From a virus, in IMG/VR virus record IMGVR_UViG_3300010150_000240, positions 1 through 20,824 of that record: DNA of 20,824 bases; one strand, written 5' to 3'. Positions 5,287-18,967 of the stretch are shown here, piece after piece. The notes beneath the pieces were generated by a model. The model did no database searches, was not told the DNA's origin, and saw only the letters and a list, made by a program, of their open reading frames with translations. The position numbers and the translations under genes were made by a program. Position 1 is the first letter of the stretch; each line of letters starts with the position of its first letter.

Positions 5287-6483
5287 TTAAGAATTCCAAA
5301 GATCACCTTCGGCAATACGGCGTCGAGACAAACCTGCCTCTACGCTAGTGCCTGGGTTACGGTATAAGTATAATGCATCTGGGACTTTTGACCACTCTTT
5401 CTCCTTCAAAACACGACTGATTGTGTTGAAATTGGGACTTCCGTAGAATCTAGCACCTAAGTTATAAGCAAAACTAACCAATGCTCCGTGCTGATTGTCG
5501 TTCATCTCATCCCAGAATGGGATTGTTTTTTCTAATACATCAAGATAGTTATACTTAACCTGCTGATCCAAGAGTAAGTCAGCCTTTTCCCTAGAGATTT
5601 TATCTCCAAGCTCAAATCGGGAGCCATCAATATCTTTAGTAGAACCCCAGCCAATAGTAATTGGGAGGTTTCCTGATAGTGGATCTGGGTATGCTTCTAG
5701 ATGTAGTCCTTCAAATTCTTTAATGAGTTCCATACCAGCAGCAGGAAGCTTACCAGAGGAGCTAGGAGAGGTTTCAACTTTCGCATAGAACACACGTCCC
5801 CAACCAGTGCTAGGACCATCAACAGTCCACCTAGCCTCTAGTACGTGCCTCTCATAGATGGCAGAGCGTCCGTTGTATACAGAACTAGTGTAGCCATCGT
5901 AAAGGTCTCCATATGGGTCGTGAACGATATACTGACCCTTTGCGTTCTTTCCTATGAGAACGATCATATGACCGCCTGTGGGTGCTGATAGGGTGCCTCT
6001 ATGAAGAATGCCTAGCACAACAGGTCTTTTTTCTTCTAACTCCTTATCTAGATCATCAAAGGATAGATTGTATTTAAATTCAGAATCAACACCATAGTCT
6101 TTTAATACTTTGGTTTGTACTGAGTGATCTGTTGTATCTCCAACAGCAAATACCTTACGGATATAATCATCATCACCTTTGGGACCCCGCAGAGTGCCTG
6201 GGCGAAAATACTCCAAAGTCATAGCACAGGAAGATGAGTTACACGTTCTATCTGGTTCAGTGTAGTTATCTGTCTGTGGATAGAAAGGAACTGGAAGAAG
6301 TAACTCCGCAGGTTCTGGGTTTGGTTCTGGTTTATTGCGATATGTCTCTACCCATTCAGACTCATCTTCTAATAATTCTGGCGCTGCCTTTATTAATGCG
6401 GCTTCAAGTTCAGCGACAGCTTCCCTATGGTGAGAGAGTTTATCATCATAAAACTTGAAAAAGTTGCTAAGTTCTATTCTCAT
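5287..6483 (-). CDS. C39-like peptidase / GH24 lysozyme fusion (bifunctional lysin)
   Basis: This 398-residue protein joins two hydrolase domains. Residues about 62-235 look like a papain-fold C39-family peptidase: VPFYPQTDN, Cys81 in TCNSSSCAM (candidate nucleophile), His172 in GGHMIVLIG and Asp189 in VHDPYGD. After a Ser-rich linker (238-246), residues 250-398 are a T4-type lysozyme: ELIKEFEGLHLEAYPDP with Glu258 and Asp267 spaced as Glu11/Asp20 of T4 lysozyme, Thr276 in ITIGWGST, and the terminal GLSRRRIAEGDLW. There is no signal peptide. Cutting both peptide cross-links and glycan would suit an endolysin or a virion-borne wall-degrading enzyme. A late promoter lies 19 bases upstream. Catalytic assignments are by motif only. 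Confidence 0.85.
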   Translation of the reverse strand: MRIELSNFFKFYDDKLSHHREAVAELEAALIKAAPELLEDESEWVETYRNKPEPNPEPAELLLPVPFYPQTDNYTEPDRTCNSSSCAMTLEYFRPGTLRGPKGDDDYIRKVFAVGDTTDHSVQTKVLKDYGVDSEFKYNLSFDDLDKELEEKRPVVLGILHRGTLSAPTGGHMIVLIGKNAKGQYIVHDPYGDLYDGYTSSVYNGRSAIYERHVLEARWTVDGPSTGWGRVFYAKVETSPSSSGKLPAAGMELIKEFEGLHLEAYPDPLSGNLPITIGWGSTKDIDGSRFELGDKISREKADLLLDQQVKYNYLDVLEKTIPFWDEMNDNQHGALVSFAYNLGARFYGSPNFNTISRVLKEKEWSKVPDALYLYRNPGTSVEAGLSRRRIAEGDLWNS

Positions 6484-13871: not shown

Positions 13872-14264
13872 TTAGTTCCTTGGAACTATTATAGCAGGTC
13901 TTTCTTCAACGAATACAAGTTCTGTGACAAAAGGGGAAATAATCATAAGTGTCACAAAGAAAAGACTAATACCACCCATTCCCATCCAAACTTTACGTTC
14001 GATGGTATTGATTCTAGTAATAGCATCTTCTACTCTACCTTCAAGTTTGTCCCCAAGATCCTCAATATCTCTAGCATTTTCAGCTAAAGACTCTCTGGTA
14101 AAGTCTAGCTTCTCTTCATGAACTGCCAACATTCTGCTGACACTTACACTTAGATCACTTAACTTTTCTATAGTTGTGTCTAACCTGGATAGAACTTCTA
14201 CCATGTTACCCAACTTCTCTTCAAGGACTGCTAACTTAATGTTATCGGGGTCCTTTTCTGGCAT
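13872..14264 (-). CDS. Coiled-coil protein with C-terminal membrane anchor, unknown
   Basis: Of the 130 residues, about 8-90 form a long heptad-like coiled coil (LAVLEEKLGNMVEVLSRLD... and EDLGDKLEGRVEDAITRI). A hydrophobic segment (about 93-112, WMGMGGISLFFVTLMII) follows, then a short tail. The topology resembles small tail-anchored phage proteins found near lysis or tail genes, but no named family can be assigned. The first 23 bases overlap the previous gene, and the last codons contain the predicted primase promoter. Function unknown. Confidence 0.75.
   Translation of the reverse strand: MPEKDPDNIKLAVLEEKLGNMVEVLSRLDTTIEKLSDLSVSVSRMLAVHEEKLDFTRESLAENARDIEDLGDKLEGRVEDAITRINTIERKVWMGMGGISLFFVTLMIISPFVTELVFVEERPAIIVPRN
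13874..13896 (-). promoter_or_regulatory. Extended -10 promoter plus palindrome upstream of primase
   Basis: TGCTATAAT (13888-13896, minus strand) is followed directly by the dyad AGTTCC-N2-GGAACT (13874-13887), which covers the expected start site. No good -35 box is seen. Both lie within the last codons of the upstream gene, about 30 bases before the primase ATG. Confidence 0.45.
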
Positions 14265-14505
14265 TTTTTGCTCCTTTGCTTGGTTTTACTGCTTGTCTGT
14301 AAAACATATTGAGCTTCTTATACTTGCGCTTGCGAAAGTCTACTGGCGCATCATATCCAGCAACTGGACCTTTGGAGTCAGCAGCACCAGAAAAACCAGG
14401 CTTCCCAGGAGAGGATTGAGTAGTCATACCACCAACGGCACCACCACCCATTTCTTCTTTAAGACGCCTATAGCATTCTAGTATTTTGTCTACCTTATTC
14501 TCCAT
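14242..14505 (-). CDS. Small basic Gly-rich protein, unknown
   Basis: The product has 87 residues: a helical N-terminus (MENKVDKILECYRRLKEEMG), a Gly/Ser/Pro-rich flexible middle (GGGAVGGM, SPGKPGFSGAAD), and a strongly basic C-terminus (DFRKRKYKKL ... KPSKGAKNARKGPR). The basic tail may bind nucleic acid or DNA in the head; that is inference. Its ATG is inside the end of the upstream gene (11-base overlap), and its end overlaps the next gene by 23 bases. It looks like a conserved cyanophage gene of unknown role. Confidence 0.7.
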   Translation of the reverse strand: MENKVDKILECYRRLKEEMGGGAVGGMTTQSSPGKPGFSGAADSKGPVAGYDAPVDFRKRKYKKLNMFYRQAVKPSKGAKNARKGPR

Positions 14506-14906: not shown

Positions 14907-15422
14907 TTAAGTAGTGGGGTACGGACGATTACCTGTCGCAATTCCAGATTGAGCAACAAAAGTTTCTGTCTTTGTGCGAAGATTGCCATGCATATCAACA
15001 TAAGTCATAATACCAACCCAACCAGCGTGGAATCCACCAGTAGTTGTTGTTAGTCCAGCGGCAGCAACACCAGCAGTAGATACACCAGCTAGAACTTGAG
15101 TACGACCTAGGCTTCCATCAGCAGAACTAGGAGCATAACCTGGATCATTCTTTAGACTAATAGGCTGTGTCGCATATGTGGCAGGATAGGTTCCAGCTGC
15201 TACAGCAGACATCTTACCTACACGATAAAGATCTGTAGAGATTTCGGCTTCTAATGTTACGAAACCAGATTCGCCACCATCTAGGATAGCAGAAGTTCCT
15301 GTTGCAATACCACTAGCACTTAGTCCCGCTGCTGATGCGGTCCAAAACTCAGAGCTAGCTGTACCGACAACGGTTACTGGGCTAGGTCCGGTTATATTAT
15401 CTTGAGTTCCCCAGAGTGACAT
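14907..15422 (-). CDS. Probable virion structural protein (MSLWG family)
   Basis: The 171-residue protein is very rich in Gly, Ala, Ser and Thr, with no charged helices, typical of beta-rich virion surface or fibre-like proteins. It begins MSLWGTQDNITGP and ends with WVGIMTYVDMHGNLRTKTET and VAQSGIATGNR. From memory, both ends recur in cyanophage proteins starting MSLWGNxD, found with structural genes. The promoter at 15458-15465 is a perfect late octamer, supporting expression with virion genes. Exact location in the particle is unknown. Confidence 0.75.
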   Translation of the reverse strand: MSLWGTQDNITGPSPVTVVGTASSEFWTASAAGLSASGIATGTSAILDGGESGFVTLEAEISTDLYRVGKMSAVAAGTYPATYATQPISLKNDPGYAPSSADGSLGRTQVLAGVSTAGVAAAGLTTTTGGFHAGWVGIMTYVDMHGNLRTKTETFVAQSGIATGNRPYPTT

Positions 15423-15457
15423 GTTCTGTTCCTTTTGTAATTTAATTACCGTAGTTT

Positions 15458-15465
15458 TATTTATA
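15458..15465 (-). promoter_or_regulatory. Late promoter (TATAAATA)
   Basis: A perfect T4 late promoter octamer lies on the minus strand 36 bases before the structural gene at 15422. It is placed just 2 bases after the T-tract of the preceding terminator. Confidence 0.75.
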
Positions 15466-15467
15466 AT

Positions 15468-15496
15468 AAAAAAAAGACCCAGTTTTTTGGGTCTTT
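15468..15496 (-). terminator. Rho-independent terminator
   Basis: On the minus strand AAAGACCCA (15496-15488) pairs with TGGGTCTTT (15481-15473), with a 6-base loop and eight T residues (15475-15468). It ends the transcript of the two small genes at 15500-15846. Confidence 0.92.
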
Positions 15497-15499
15497 AAA

Positions 15500-15673
15500 T
15501 TACTTAAAAAATATTCTTCGCATAGAGCGGAGAATGTATTCAAGTATATCTAATAATAATGATAGTACTCCATTTGCCTTCACAAGTTTTGTTTTACCTA
15601 GAGCTTCAGATAGAATCAGAAGTCCTGTAATAATCCAAAATGTAGTATGTGATAAGGCAAAACATTCAATCAC
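15500..15673 (-). CDS. Small membrane protein with GTG start, 57 residues
   Basis: The frame starts at GTG 15671-15673, which overlaps the TGA of the upstream gene as GTGA, and ends TAA at 15500-15502. The product starts MIECFALSHTTFWIITGLLI, giving one membrane segment (about 9-22). KLVKANGVLSLLLDILEYIL and a basic tail (RSMRRIFFK) follow. Tight coupling and the terminator right after it support a real gene. It is a holin-sized protein, but a single segment is not proof of that role. Confidence 0.65.
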   Translation of the reverse strand: MIECFALSHTTFWIITGLLILSEALGKTKLVKANGVLSLLLDILEYILRSMRRIFFK

Positions 15674-15846
15674 TTAACTTCGCTAGGAAGTAGTGCTTTA
15701 CGGACGGTAGCGACAACTAGGTCATCGATATCGTTATCGGTGGAGGCAGCATAACGCTCAAGTAGCTCAACTACTAGACGCTTTACTTCAGCAGAATCAC
15801 GGAGCCACATAAGAACGGGCTTGAATAGTTCTACTAGCTTAGACAT
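15670..15846 (-). CDS. Small unknown helical protein, 58 residues
   Basis: ATG at 15844-15846 gives a frame ending TGA at 15670-15672. The product starts MSKLVELFKPVLMWLRDSAE and continues through VKRLVVELLERYAAS to an acidic DNDIDDLV and ALLPSEVK end. It is probably all helical. It is the first gene behind the late promoter at 15872-15879 and is coupled by GTGA to the small membrane gene, so the two may act together. No family is named. Confidence 0.7.
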   Translation of the reverse strand: MSKLVELFKPVLMWLRDSAEVKRLVVELLERYAASTDNDIDDLVVATVRKALLPSEVK

Positions 15847-15871
15847 AGGGGTTACCTATAAACTGCACCTT

Positions 15872-15879
15872 TATTTATA
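15872..15879 (-). promoter_or_regulatory. Late promoter (TATAAATA)
   Basis: This perfect late octamer lies 26 bases upstream of the ATG at 15846. It shares the TAA stop codon (15875-15877) of the 586-residue gene. Confidence 0.7.
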
Positions 15880-17635
15880 CACCAGATCCGTTAGGAACGG
15901 TTCCCTTATCGAAAGGCAACTCAGGACCATCTGGAGCATTAGGTCTACGGTCTCCAGGAGCTTCACCAGCATTCTTATAACGCTTGGGCTTACCCTTTGG
16001 ATTCATTACTCCAGGCTCACCTTCAGGATCTTTCTCAGGATCAATCATTTCCTTCGTAGGACCTGTTGCGTTGTTACGACTATATTCTAGGATAGGCATA
16101 CCAGACTCATCAATCTTTGCCTTTTTCTTTTTGGGCTTCTCCTCTTTCTTGTCTTCACAGACACACTCAGGAGTTCCACACTTAGGGCAGCATTCTTCAG
16201 AAACTAGGTTCCTGATCTGACTACGTAACTCTTCACTTACAGATGTACCACGTAGGCGACCCTGTGCGACACTTTGATTGTGATCAGTGATGATAGATTC
16301 ATCAATAACAGGCATCAACTTTATGTTTGACTTGTTATCAACACCCTTGCCTGTTAGCTTTTTCCTTTCACGCTCACCCTGGTTCTCACGACCAGCGTCA
16401 ACTAAGTCAGCTTCAGATACAAAGTCTTCACCAATAGAAGACTTCTTCTTCTTAAAGTCAACCGCCATACGACGCTTGTAGAGGTCTTTGATCTTGTCCT
16501 CGTCACGTCCATACTTTTTGGACTTTCCTCTCTCAATTTCCTCCTCTCTGCCTAACTTAGCACCCTTGGCTTTACGCTTTTCGGTGGGGTCAGGCTTCCA
16601 CTCTTCTTTAGTCTCTACTTTTTTTTTTGACTCTGCTCTCTTGTAAGCGGGGTTGCCTGCTTTGAGACGCTTGTATGCTTCGGTATTACCTCTCTCGTCA
16701 GCATCAGTGACTTCATATCTTTCAGCCAACTTAGCAGCACGAAGTTCTAGGTACTGTTCCCAAGCAGACTCCTTCTTTACACCAGGCTCTTTAGCTGGGC
16801 GATCCTTCATACTATGTGTAAAACTGGATCTGTGATCTTCTGGGGGATGAGTGCCGTCCTTACCAGTTCTCTTACCACCGTAAGTATCGCGGCGGGGGTC
16901 TTCACCGCGCTCAATAGCACCACGGATGCTAGACATTTTAAATGACTTGTTCTTAGCATCGCCTCTTCCACCACCTTTTTGGCTAGTGGATTTCTTCATA
17001 TGCTTGTTTTCTTGGTCCTTCATTTTCTGTAGGTTGGCTTCTTTCTTGCCTTCCTCTAGCTCAAACTCTTCCTTACGAGTGTCCTGTCCGTCAGGCTTAC
17101 CACCCATCTTGCGTTGAATGGCGTTGTGGACTACACCAGCGTGCTCTTTAGAAGAAGACTCAACTTTACCGTCTCCATCGCGGTCACCACCACCACCTTT
17201 AGCAGCTGCTGTCCTGCTACCATCATTGTCTTCCCCAGTTGCGCCGTGGTCAGTCAACTCAACAGAAGCAATATTGGGGTTGGCACGTAGCTCAGCAATT
17301 TTCTGACGAGTAGCGTAGCGGACATAGCTTGAGTTAGAACTACGATCCTTCACACGAACCTTATACTTTGTTCCTTCTCCAGTCTCTTTAGTATCAACTT
17401 CATGGATATCTTCTACTCCAGTTACGAATATCGCCTTAAATGCGCTAGTCAATGAGTCTTCAGCCATTTCTTTCAAGGTATAATCCTCAAAGAAGGCAGC
17501 CTTTAGAGCAGCAGCATCTTCAATGCTCATATCAGCTTCATAAAAGAAGGCAGTCAATGCTTCGGTATGAGTTAGATTTTCAGTCTCGGCAAGAGTTTTT
17601 ACTAACTCAATTGCCTCAGTGATTTGGAATTCCAT
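15875..17635 (-). CDS. Large charged, probably virion-associated protein with Cys cluster
   Basis: The product has 586 residues. The N-terminal about 90 are acidic and helical (ELVKTLAETENLTHTEALTA, FFEDYTLKEMAEDS). A compact segment follows with KYKVRVKDRSSNSSYVRYAT and then RQKIAELRANPNIASVELT. Most of the rest (about 140-470) is low-complexity Lys/Glu/Arg/Gly sequence, likely disordered. Near residues 478-491 is CCPKCGTPECVCE, a possible zinc knuckle. The end is Pro/Gly-rich. Its late promoter (17676-17683) and neighbours suggest a late, possibly internal head or scaffold-type protein; this is inference. Similar proteins occur in cyanophages without known role, from memory. Confidence 0.75.
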   Translation of the reverse strand: MEFQITEAIELVKTLAETENLTHTEALTAFFYEADMSIEDAAALKAAFFEDYTLKEMAEDSLTSAFKAIFVTGVEDIHEVDTKETGEGTKYKVRVKDRSSNSSYVRYATRQKIAELRANPNIASVELTDHGATGEDNDGSRTAAAKGGGGDRDGDGKVESSSKEHAGVVHNAIQRKMGGKPDGQDTRKEEFELEEGKKEANLQKMKDQENKHMKKSTSQKGGGRGDAKNKSFKMSSIRGAIERGEDPRRDTYGGKRTGKDGTHPPEDHRSSFTHSMKDRPAKEPGVKKESAWEQYLELRAAKLAERYEVTDADERGNTEAYKRLKAGNPAYKRAESKKKVETKEEWKPDPTEKRKAKGAKLGREEEIERGKSKKYGRDEDKIKDLYKRRMAVDFKKKKSSIGEDFVSEADLVDAGRENQGERERKKLTGKGVDNKSNIKLMPVIDESIITDHNQSVAQGRLRGTSVSEELRSQIRNLVSEECCPKCGTPECVCEDKKEEKPKKKKAKIDESGMPILEYSRNNATGPTKEMIDPEKDPEGEPGVMNPKGKPKRYKNAGEAPGDRRPNAPDGPELPFDKGTVPNGSGV

Positions 17636-17675
17636 TTATCTAAAATAAGCAGGGCGTGGGGTTTCTTCGTAGTTT

Positions 17676-17683
17676 TATTTATA
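17676..17683 (-). promoter_or_regulatory. Late promoter (TATAAATA)
   Basis: This perfect late octamer lies in the 60-base gap after the nucleotidyltransferase gene, 41 bases before the start of the 586-residue gene. Confidence 0.7.
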
Positions 17684-17695
17684 TAAGTTCTTAAT

Positions 17696-18967
17696 CTATG
17701 AAAACTTAGATAAAAATTGTGTAAAGCTATTAACTTTAGATTGGGGTGTATTAGTTGGATTGTTATAACTAACATCCTGTGTCCAGGTCTTAAACATCTT
17801 ATCATCCTCTGTAACACAAATTAGATAATTAGCTCCTGTCCTAACAATTTCAGCATACATTCCAGTGGTATCGTGAGTTATCATATCGCCAATATTAAAT
17901 ATATTGCCATTGACATACTCTTCTCTCAATTCCAATAAGTGTAACTTCGGCGCTATTTCCCAGTTTTCGGAAACGGCAGCTTCCTTTGGAGTAACTCCCA
18001 TAGCATCTTGAAGCTCGGTAAATATTCCAAGTAGAACTTCATTGCCTAGAGATTTAGGCATACCTTTCTTAAAGGAAACAAAGTCATTGTCTTTGGCTGC
18101 CTTACGCATCTTAGAGGCAGACATCCCATCAGTATCATCTGAATCGGGATCGCGATCACCAGCATTTATAACTTCAATATTATCAAATTGATAAGTAGAT
18201 CCATTATACTTATTGGCTAGCTTCTCAAACTGACCAACTCGGTCTCCGCCCCCAACAATGCGCACATTAGCATAGCCATCGTTGTGTGCCTTACGCATAA
18301 CATCAAAAATGGTACGGTTTGCCGCATCATTTACAATTTTTTCTGCGTGGTCTGGATATAGCTGACGCATCATAGCAGCTTTACGATCAACTCCTAATGG
18401 ATTTTTTTTCTTGTCCTCAGAACGAGAAGGGATAATCATATAGTCATTATCATCAGAGCTAGAAGCCACCTTATCCATAAGCTTCTGGTGTCCCACGGTA
18501 GGTGGGTTGAAGCGCCCAAAGGCAAGAGTGAGTGTGCCTTTAGTCTTGGGAACATCAGCGGGGTACTGTTGCTCTGTGGGAGCAGCAGCGGCAGGTTGAG
18601 CTGCTTGCTGAGCTTGCGCTGGGGCGGCAGCAGCATCCTGTGCGGTTACTTCGGGCGCTACTGCTCCTTTATCAGCTTGGGCTTGTGTAGCGCCTTCTGT
18701 GTCCTTTACACGGGTGCCTAGGGCAGCACCACCAGCAGCTTCTTCACCAGAAGTAGCTTTATCAGCTGCACTCTGATTTGGGTCTCTACCGTCTGGGTTT
18801 TGATTGGAGTTAAAGAACTCCAGCCCATCACCTTTAGTCTTGGCAACAAACTCACCGCGCTCATCATACCAGCCACCGTGACCGTCACTACGCAAACCCA
18901 TCTTAGTGGCTTGCTGAACGGCTTTGGATTGCTTGGCTTCAAATAGAAAACTTAGGAATGATTTCAT
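17696..18967 (-). CDS. Nucleotidyltransferase with phage head-type N-terminus
   Basis: The 423-residue protein has three parts. Residues 1-52 begin MKSFLSFLFEAKQ and include SDGHGGWYDERGEFVAKTKG, a module I recall from other cyanophage proteins. The first residues resemble T4 capsid-targeting peptides (MKTYQEFIAEA), and LFE fits the gp21 protease site (I/L-x-E). Residues 53-140 are an Ala/Gln-rich linker. Residues 145-325 are a nucleotidyltransferase fold: GRFNPPTVGH (151-160, TxGH in place of HxGH), VGGGDR (238-243) and SASKMRK (283-289, the ISSTxxR-like motif). Residues about 335-423 hold a small beta domain (GNIFNIGDMITHDTTGMYAE). Such enzymes join NMP groups, e.g. in NAD or CDP-compound synthesis. 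Substrate unknown. Confidence 0.85.
   Translation of the reverse strand: MKSFLSFLFEAKQSKAVQQATKMGLRSDGHGGWYDERGEFVAKTKGDGLEFFNSNQNPDGRDPNQSAADKATSGEEAAGGAALGTRVKDTEGATQAQADKGAVAPEVTAQDAAAAPAQAQQAAQPAAAAPTEQQYPADVPKTKGTLTLAFGRFNPPTVGHQKLMDKVASSSDDNDYMIIPSRSEDKKKNPLGVDRKAAMMRQLYPDHAEKIVNDAANRTIFDVMRKAHNDGYANVRIVGGGDRVGQFEKLANKYNGSTYQFDNIEVINAGDRDPDSDDTDGMSASKMRKAAKDNDFVSFKKGMPKSLGNEVLLGIFTELQDAMGVTPKEAAVSENWEIAPKLHLLELREEYVNGNIFNIGDMITHDTTGMYAEIVRTGANYLICVTEDDKMFKTWTQDVSYNNPTNTPQSKVNSFTQFLSKFS

Follow-up and report, generated by a model that had tools for sequence, protein, structure and literature searches.

The closest described systems are found in T4, whose sequence record shows that ipII and ipIII both start MKTYQEFIAEA. 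Residues 4 and 7 of T4 IPIII serve targeting and residues 8 and 10 serve processing, and the gp21 prohead protease cleaves following L/I-x-E (PMC9026906); T4 also packages an enzyme in its head, the ADP-ribosyltransferase Alt, which enters the host by ejection (PMC9026906). In cyanophages, orthologues of the core gene T4-GC190 have been detected experimentally in the virions of S-SM1, as listed by Sullivan et al. (PMC3037559), of S-SZBM1 with 2 peptides (PMC9146016), of S-CREM2 with 3 peptides (PMC10665884) and of S-SCSM1 (PMC9602691), where the note in the sequence record agrees. The virion association of the family is thus already known from four published proteomes, and the authors of the S-SCSM1 (PMC9602691) and S-CREM2 (PMC10665884) studies left cargo versus carry-over undecided. 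Our literature search for a capsid targeting sequence in cyanophages returned only the T4 review (PMC9026906).

The window analysed here is the whole of a 20.8-kb virus record, which, judged by gene likeness, is a cyanomyovirus near Synechococcus phage S-CAM7. Its other genes include a primase, the alpha and beta subunits of ribonucleotide reductase (RNR), a SegE-like GIY-YIG protein, 2OG oxygenases and a GDP-mannose dehydratase; an endolysin at 5287-6483 (minus strand) combines a C39-like peptidase domain with a phage lysozyme domain. The protein under study, of 423 aa, starts with ATG and fills the ORF at 17696-18967 (minus strand) exactly; only four in-frame codons separate this ATG from the preceding stop. 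The features of this ORF and its neighbours are as follows.

17696 to 18967, minus strand: T4-GC190/phrog_395 nucleotidyltransferase, whole ORF, 423 aa (phrog_395, E 7.7e-100; PF01467)
18938 to 18967, minus strand: capsid-targeting-like peptide, residues 1-10, MKSFLSFLFE, predicted cut before Ala11 (T4 ipII/ipIII match; 64/66 homologues; S-CREM2 association)
18800 to 18931, minus strand: GHGGW module, residues 13-56, 44 residues (N-terminus of phrog_3561, E 3.5e-13)
18542 to 18799, minus strand: disordered Ala/Gln/Pro-rich linker, residues 57-142 (AlphaFold pLDDT <50 over 54-133)
17993 to 18541, minus strand: nucleotidyltransferase domain, residues 143-325 (PF01467; AlphaFold core; Foldseek to CoaD, NadD, NadM)
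18488 to 18499, minus strand: TxGH motif, T157-H160 (H160 invariant, T157 and G159 at least 90% in the family)
18101 to 18121, minus strand: SxSxxR motif SASKMRK, S283-K289 (nearly invariant in the family)
17762 to 17938, minus strand: C-terminal beta domain, residues about 344-402 (model strands; phrog_4808, E 2.3e-11)
15875 to 17635, minus strand: 586-aa neighbour, T4-GC191-like (36% identity to P-SSM2 gp195)
14907 to 15422, minus strand: 171-aa protein, homologue of the S-SCSM1 virion protein gp277 (33% identity, E 2.8e-14)

Both the profile match and the conserved gene position place the protein in the T4-GC190/phrog_395 family: it scores 33 bits against PF01467 (CTP_transf_like), above the curated cut-off of 21, and the T4-GC190 gene is flanked by mazG and primase/RNR genes in S-CAM7, P-SSM2 and S-SM1. 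The orthologue in S-CAM7, which starts MKSFLNFLFEA, shares 84-87% identity with the window protein. A tblastn search with the protein matched 554 phage records, mostly of cyanophages, with shorter relatives in enterobacterial jumbo phages.

The N-terminus of the protein, MKSFLSFLFEAKQ, bears out the likeness to the T4 capsid-targeting peptide proposed in the initial annotation: M1, K2, F7, E10 and A11 are identical to those of ipII and ipIII, and S/T3, F/Y4 and L/I8 are conservative. The reading of LFE as a gp21-type site is equally sound, as LFE/A (the slash marks the cut) conforms to the published L/I-x-E rule. Among the ORF starts of the window, the pattern M..[FY]..F[IL].E occurs only in this ORF; the core motif has a frequency of about 1e-4 per position in S-CREM2 proteins, real tags counted in, so that about 0.003 chance matches are expected over the window's gene starts, which number roughly 25. 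The search for further proteins with this peptide that the initial annotation suggested thus yields none among the ORF starts of the window; the related S-CREM2 has others. Over 73 kb of T4, the same strict pattern returned ipII, ipIII and the small protein 61.1; the last (54 aa, T4 genome 18966-19130, minus strand; L027) starts MKTFKEFIKED, a full tag match.

The tag is also conserved at the positions that matter in T4. We gathered 66 distinct homologues with search patterns lying outside the tag, drawn from the best 80 matches to the whole query and hence ranked by similarity to it. The tag was present in 64 of these 66, with F7 and E10 invariant in all 64, position 4 either F (61) or L (3), position 8 L, I, F or V, and position 11 A, S or T in 62; positions 5, 6, 9 and 12 varied. 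The conserved positions 4, 7, 8 and 10 are those of IPIII targeting (4, 7) and processing (8, 10). The two exceptions carry shortened tags, MKTFINFIES and MKSFFQFLES. Homologues consisting of the enzyme domain only (P-HM2 gp163, S-CAM4 gp167 and those of Escherichia phage SHEFM2K and an Erwinia phage) are without the tag, and we therefore reject the possibility that the tag is part of the enzyme fold. Next to the untagged P-HM2 enzyme lies gp164 (L225, 3065-4381), which carries a relative of the nucleotidyltransferase's C-terminal domain; gp164 starts MKSLSDFTKKSKVAEA and there resembles T4 ipI (MKTFKEFTSTTTPVSTITEA).

All four virion-detected orthologues are tagged, with the N-termini MKKFSAFLNEA, MKSFLQFLKEA, MRFRQFIIEA (one residue shorter) and MKNFSSFLTEA. 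The tag also tracks virion detection among unrelated proteins, as seen when the complete S-CREM2 genome was compared with the published list (52 virion-detected ORFs and 167 others). The strict pattern, taken from T4 and the window, matched 3 of the 52 virion ORFs and none of the remaining 167 (p 0.013). A relaxed version, M..[FYL]..F[ILMF].E, matched 5/52 versus 0/167 (p 6.5e-4); it was written after the S-CREM2 N-termini had been seen, and the strict-pattern p is therefore the cleaner value. S-SCSM1 has two tagged ORFs, one of them flagged as a virion protein, which is too few for a separate test; pooling the two phages gave 6/97 versus 1/~403 (p 2.8e-4), with approximate denominators for S-SCSM1. 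The tagged S-CREM2 proteins are these.

S-CREM2 gp6: SAM lyase (PF23780, E 2.3e-19)
S-CREM2 gp14: kinase
S-CREM2 gp154: nucleotidyltransferase (T4-GC190)
S-CREM2 gp13 and gp136: no assigned function

In a further S-CREM2 virion protein, gp12 (L023, 7704-10313), a Trp-rich leader precedes the tag, which reads LRFASFMAEA (residues 17-26); the S-H34 counterpart of gp12 shows AGFSSFLKEA at the corresponding place. The label 'Cas9' deposited for gp12 finds no support in Pfam or NCBIfam; read by eye, the protein appears HNH-like. The structural genes of S-SCSM1 (44215-44535), S-SZBM1 (122311-122628) and L144 include one for a conserved protein of about 105 aa that bears the tag; this protein, of 105-106 aa, was undetected by mass spectrometry in S-SCSM1 and S-SZBM1 virions.

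The form of the tag is close to that of the capsid maturation sites of the same phages. The junctions of the major capsid proteins read RTFLSE/T in S-CAM7, GSFLAE/A in S-SCSM1, GLLTE/A in S-CREM2 and GILTE/A in S-SZBM1, the cyanophage cut positions being assigned by analogy with T4 (gp23, GSFLTE/A), and LSFLFE/A of the window tag is a close match to this form. S-CAM7 codes for a gp21 homologue; the window is without head genes. An 87-aa protein of the window (14242-14505, minus strand; phrog_696, E 1.2e-6) has a stretch, GFSGAADSKGPVAGYD, like the post-junction segment of cyanophage major capsid proteins, and similar stretches occur in the virion-detected S-CREM2 gp160 and in a tagged ORF in L067.

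The neighbouring genes also have counterparts among virion proteins. The genes at the position of the 586-aa protein encode virion proteins in S-SCSM1 (gp280) and S-SZBM1 (139), which share with it the position only, no homology to either being detected; gp21-like sites inside the 586-aa protein show only a mild excess (11 versus 5.5 expected, P 0.016). The 171-aa protein corresponds to S-SCSM1 gp277, which is marked as a virion protein in its sequence record. On the strength of these counterparts, 14907-18967 looks like a small virion-protein cluster amid replication genes. The late-promoter core ATAAATA was found 7 times in the window against 6.7 expected, with no enrichment; the genes for the 586-aa and 171-aa proteins are preceded by copies at a distance of about 35-40 bases, which we do not count as evidence.

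Behind the tag, the architecture is largely that described in the initial annotation: the long Ala/Gln linker is predicted with pLDDT <50, the TxGH and SASKMRK motifs are both present, and the domain bounds given there as 145-325 become 143-325 in the AlphaFold model, whose core is confident (mostly pLDDT 80-93) and whose N-terminal helix is of low confidence. The GHGGW module and the C-terminal beta domain had been overlooked. The structural comparison suggested for the domain gives a Rossmann-like fold matching CoaD, NadD and NadM alike (top Foldseek ranks, E from 4e-5), and it does not single out one substrate class. The NMNAT class is not assigned to the protein, which scores 23.5 bits against TIGR00482 NadD (cut-off 112.45) and 21.9 bits against TIGR01526 NadR (cut-off 341.15), far under both curated cut-offs. 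Against PDB sequences, phmmer with the window protein returned nothing and a profile search returned weak matches only. The NARP1 enzyme Namat was set aside as a counterpart because, like Nampt, it couples ADPR-PP to nicotinamide and does not belong to the adenylyltransferases.

The tag is not confined to this enzyme. A degenerate DNA pattern for MKxFxxFLxEA matched at least 120 IMG/VR contigs, whereas a permuted pattern with identical specified bases gave 11 matches over the full IMG/VR, three of which were tagged nucleotidyltransferases. Among the matches listed, 116 of the 118 contigs examined had the pattern at the start of an ORF that was at least 60 aa long or open-ended. There were 108 tagged ORFs with a length of at least 60 aa, of which 71 match the nucleotidyltransferase motif and 35 do not. 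The latter include, among the matches listed, DUF6267, DUF5661, DUF192 and WYL_2 proteins, and one tagged ORF is possibly an M78-type peptidase. In L031, L064, L073 and L133, the tag sits directly on the nucleotidyltransferase, which is followed by a P-loop kinase-like domain in a NadR-like arrangement. Across the whole S-CREM2 proteome, the GHGGW profile found only the gp14 kinase (two copies) and gp12, both virion-detected; the module also occurs on ACG-2014f gp190 and, in S-H34, on a kinase and the next large ORF.

Taken together, we favour the joint reading, to which we give a probability of roughly 0.75, that the window protein is a head-packaged enzyme with a T4-type capsid targeting sequence (CTS), cut at Glu10, ejected with the genome and forming an NAD-like product. 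Packaging is well supported for the family: of the head packaging proposed in the initial annotation, presence in the particle is supported at the level of the family, and location inside the head, cleavage between Glu10 and Ala11, ejection into the host and an NMN-like substrate would be consistent with the T4 precedent. Residues 1-10 would act as the targeting sequence, Phe4 and Phe7 binding the prohead core; a gp21-type protease would cleave after Leu8-Phe9-Glu10; and the mature enzyme, from Ala11, would remain in the head alongside the DNA and be ejected together with the genome at infection. A dinucleotide, most probably NAD+ or a relative made from an NMN-like substrate, could then be produced before any phage gene expression, and related phages may load other, unrelated enzymes by means of the same tag.

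The enzyme might instead be a phage protein that is abundant inside the cell and is carried along when virions are purified, its conserved peptide binding, for example, a phage or host partner. Such carry-over was raised by the S-SCSM1 and S-CREM2 authors themselves, RegA is likewise flagged as a virion protein in S-SCSM1, and the peptide counts of 2 to 3 in S-SZBM1 and S-CREM2 are low enough to leave room for contamination. We consider this unlikely, as the family was detected in four separate phages by several laboratories, most of the abundant replication enzymes are missing from the S-CREM2 virion list, and the tag both tracks detection across unrelated proteins and copies a known targeting signal at its functional positions. 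Less likely still is a part of the virion or of the assembly core in which the domain is kept structurally and enzyme activity is no longer relevant. A few tagged homologues do have degraded SxSxxR and TxGH motifs (L122 and L141), but elsewhere in the family the catalytic motifs hardly vary, and the existence of untagged enzyme-only homologues indicates that the domain is retained on its own account.

Packaging by the tag could also be combined with a substrate other than NMN or NaMN, such as phosphopantetheine, a CTP-dependent lipid-head or sugar substrate or another nucleotide, an alternative that we take seriously at somewhat under even odds. CoaD is the best Foldseek match (target-normalised TM up to 0.74 among CoaD structures), sequence records say cytidyltransferase, and the NadD and NadR scores are low. 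On the other side, NadD and NadR are the only named substrate-specific profiles to match, a conserved KNPL segment aligns weakly with ENPF of MJ0541 (1f9a; E 0.82), and a P-loop kinase fusion like that of NadR occurs in some of the tagged homologues. Since these profiles match, though under their cut-offs, NMN/NaMN adenylylation is our first choice only and not a result, and we would put it at about an even chance.

We lean slightly towards a broader proposal, namely that marine T4-like phages possess a general cargo system in which an interchangeable T4-type CTS, often together with GHGGW, loads varying unrelated enzymes for injection, so that counter-defence and takeover would start before transcription. 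The proposed cargo set comprises the adenylyltransferase, the SAM lyase, the protein kinase, the HNH-like protein and the P-loop kinase fusions. Enzymes in cyanophage virion proteomes have repeatedly been ambiguous between packaged protein and contaminant, and the tag gives a testable rule; cargo would become readable from genomes, including those of uncultured phages. If packaged, a SAM lyase and an NAD-type adenylyltransferase would be plausible first-minute counters to restriction and to NAD-depleting defence.

The new element, which we have not found in print, is the tag as a packaging signal spread over unrelated virion enzymes, and it would extend T4 head targeting from the small internal proteins of coliphages to enzymes with metabolic and regulatory roles in ocean viruses. 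With T4 IPI, IPII and IPIII and their CTS, the window protein shares a ten-residue N-terminal peptide with an aromatic residue 4, F7, I/L8, E10, A11 and L/I-x-E; the T4 proteins are small and without a recognised enzyme domain, whereas the window protein is a 423-aa enzyme whose homology to them is limited to the tag. It would have in common with T4 Alt the role of an enzyme as head cargo, and differs from it in fold, reaction and propeptides. The adenylyltransferases CoaD, NadD and NadM have the same fold and TxGH/SxSxxR motifs at 11-18% identity, and the window protein adds to these the tag, the GHGGW module, the linker and the C-terminal domain. Finally, it is a member of the cyanophage T4-GC190/phrog_395 family, described as 'cytidyltransferase' or 'NMNAT', with orthologues in virions; within the literature searched, those descriptions mention neither the targeting-like peptide nor the GHGGW module.
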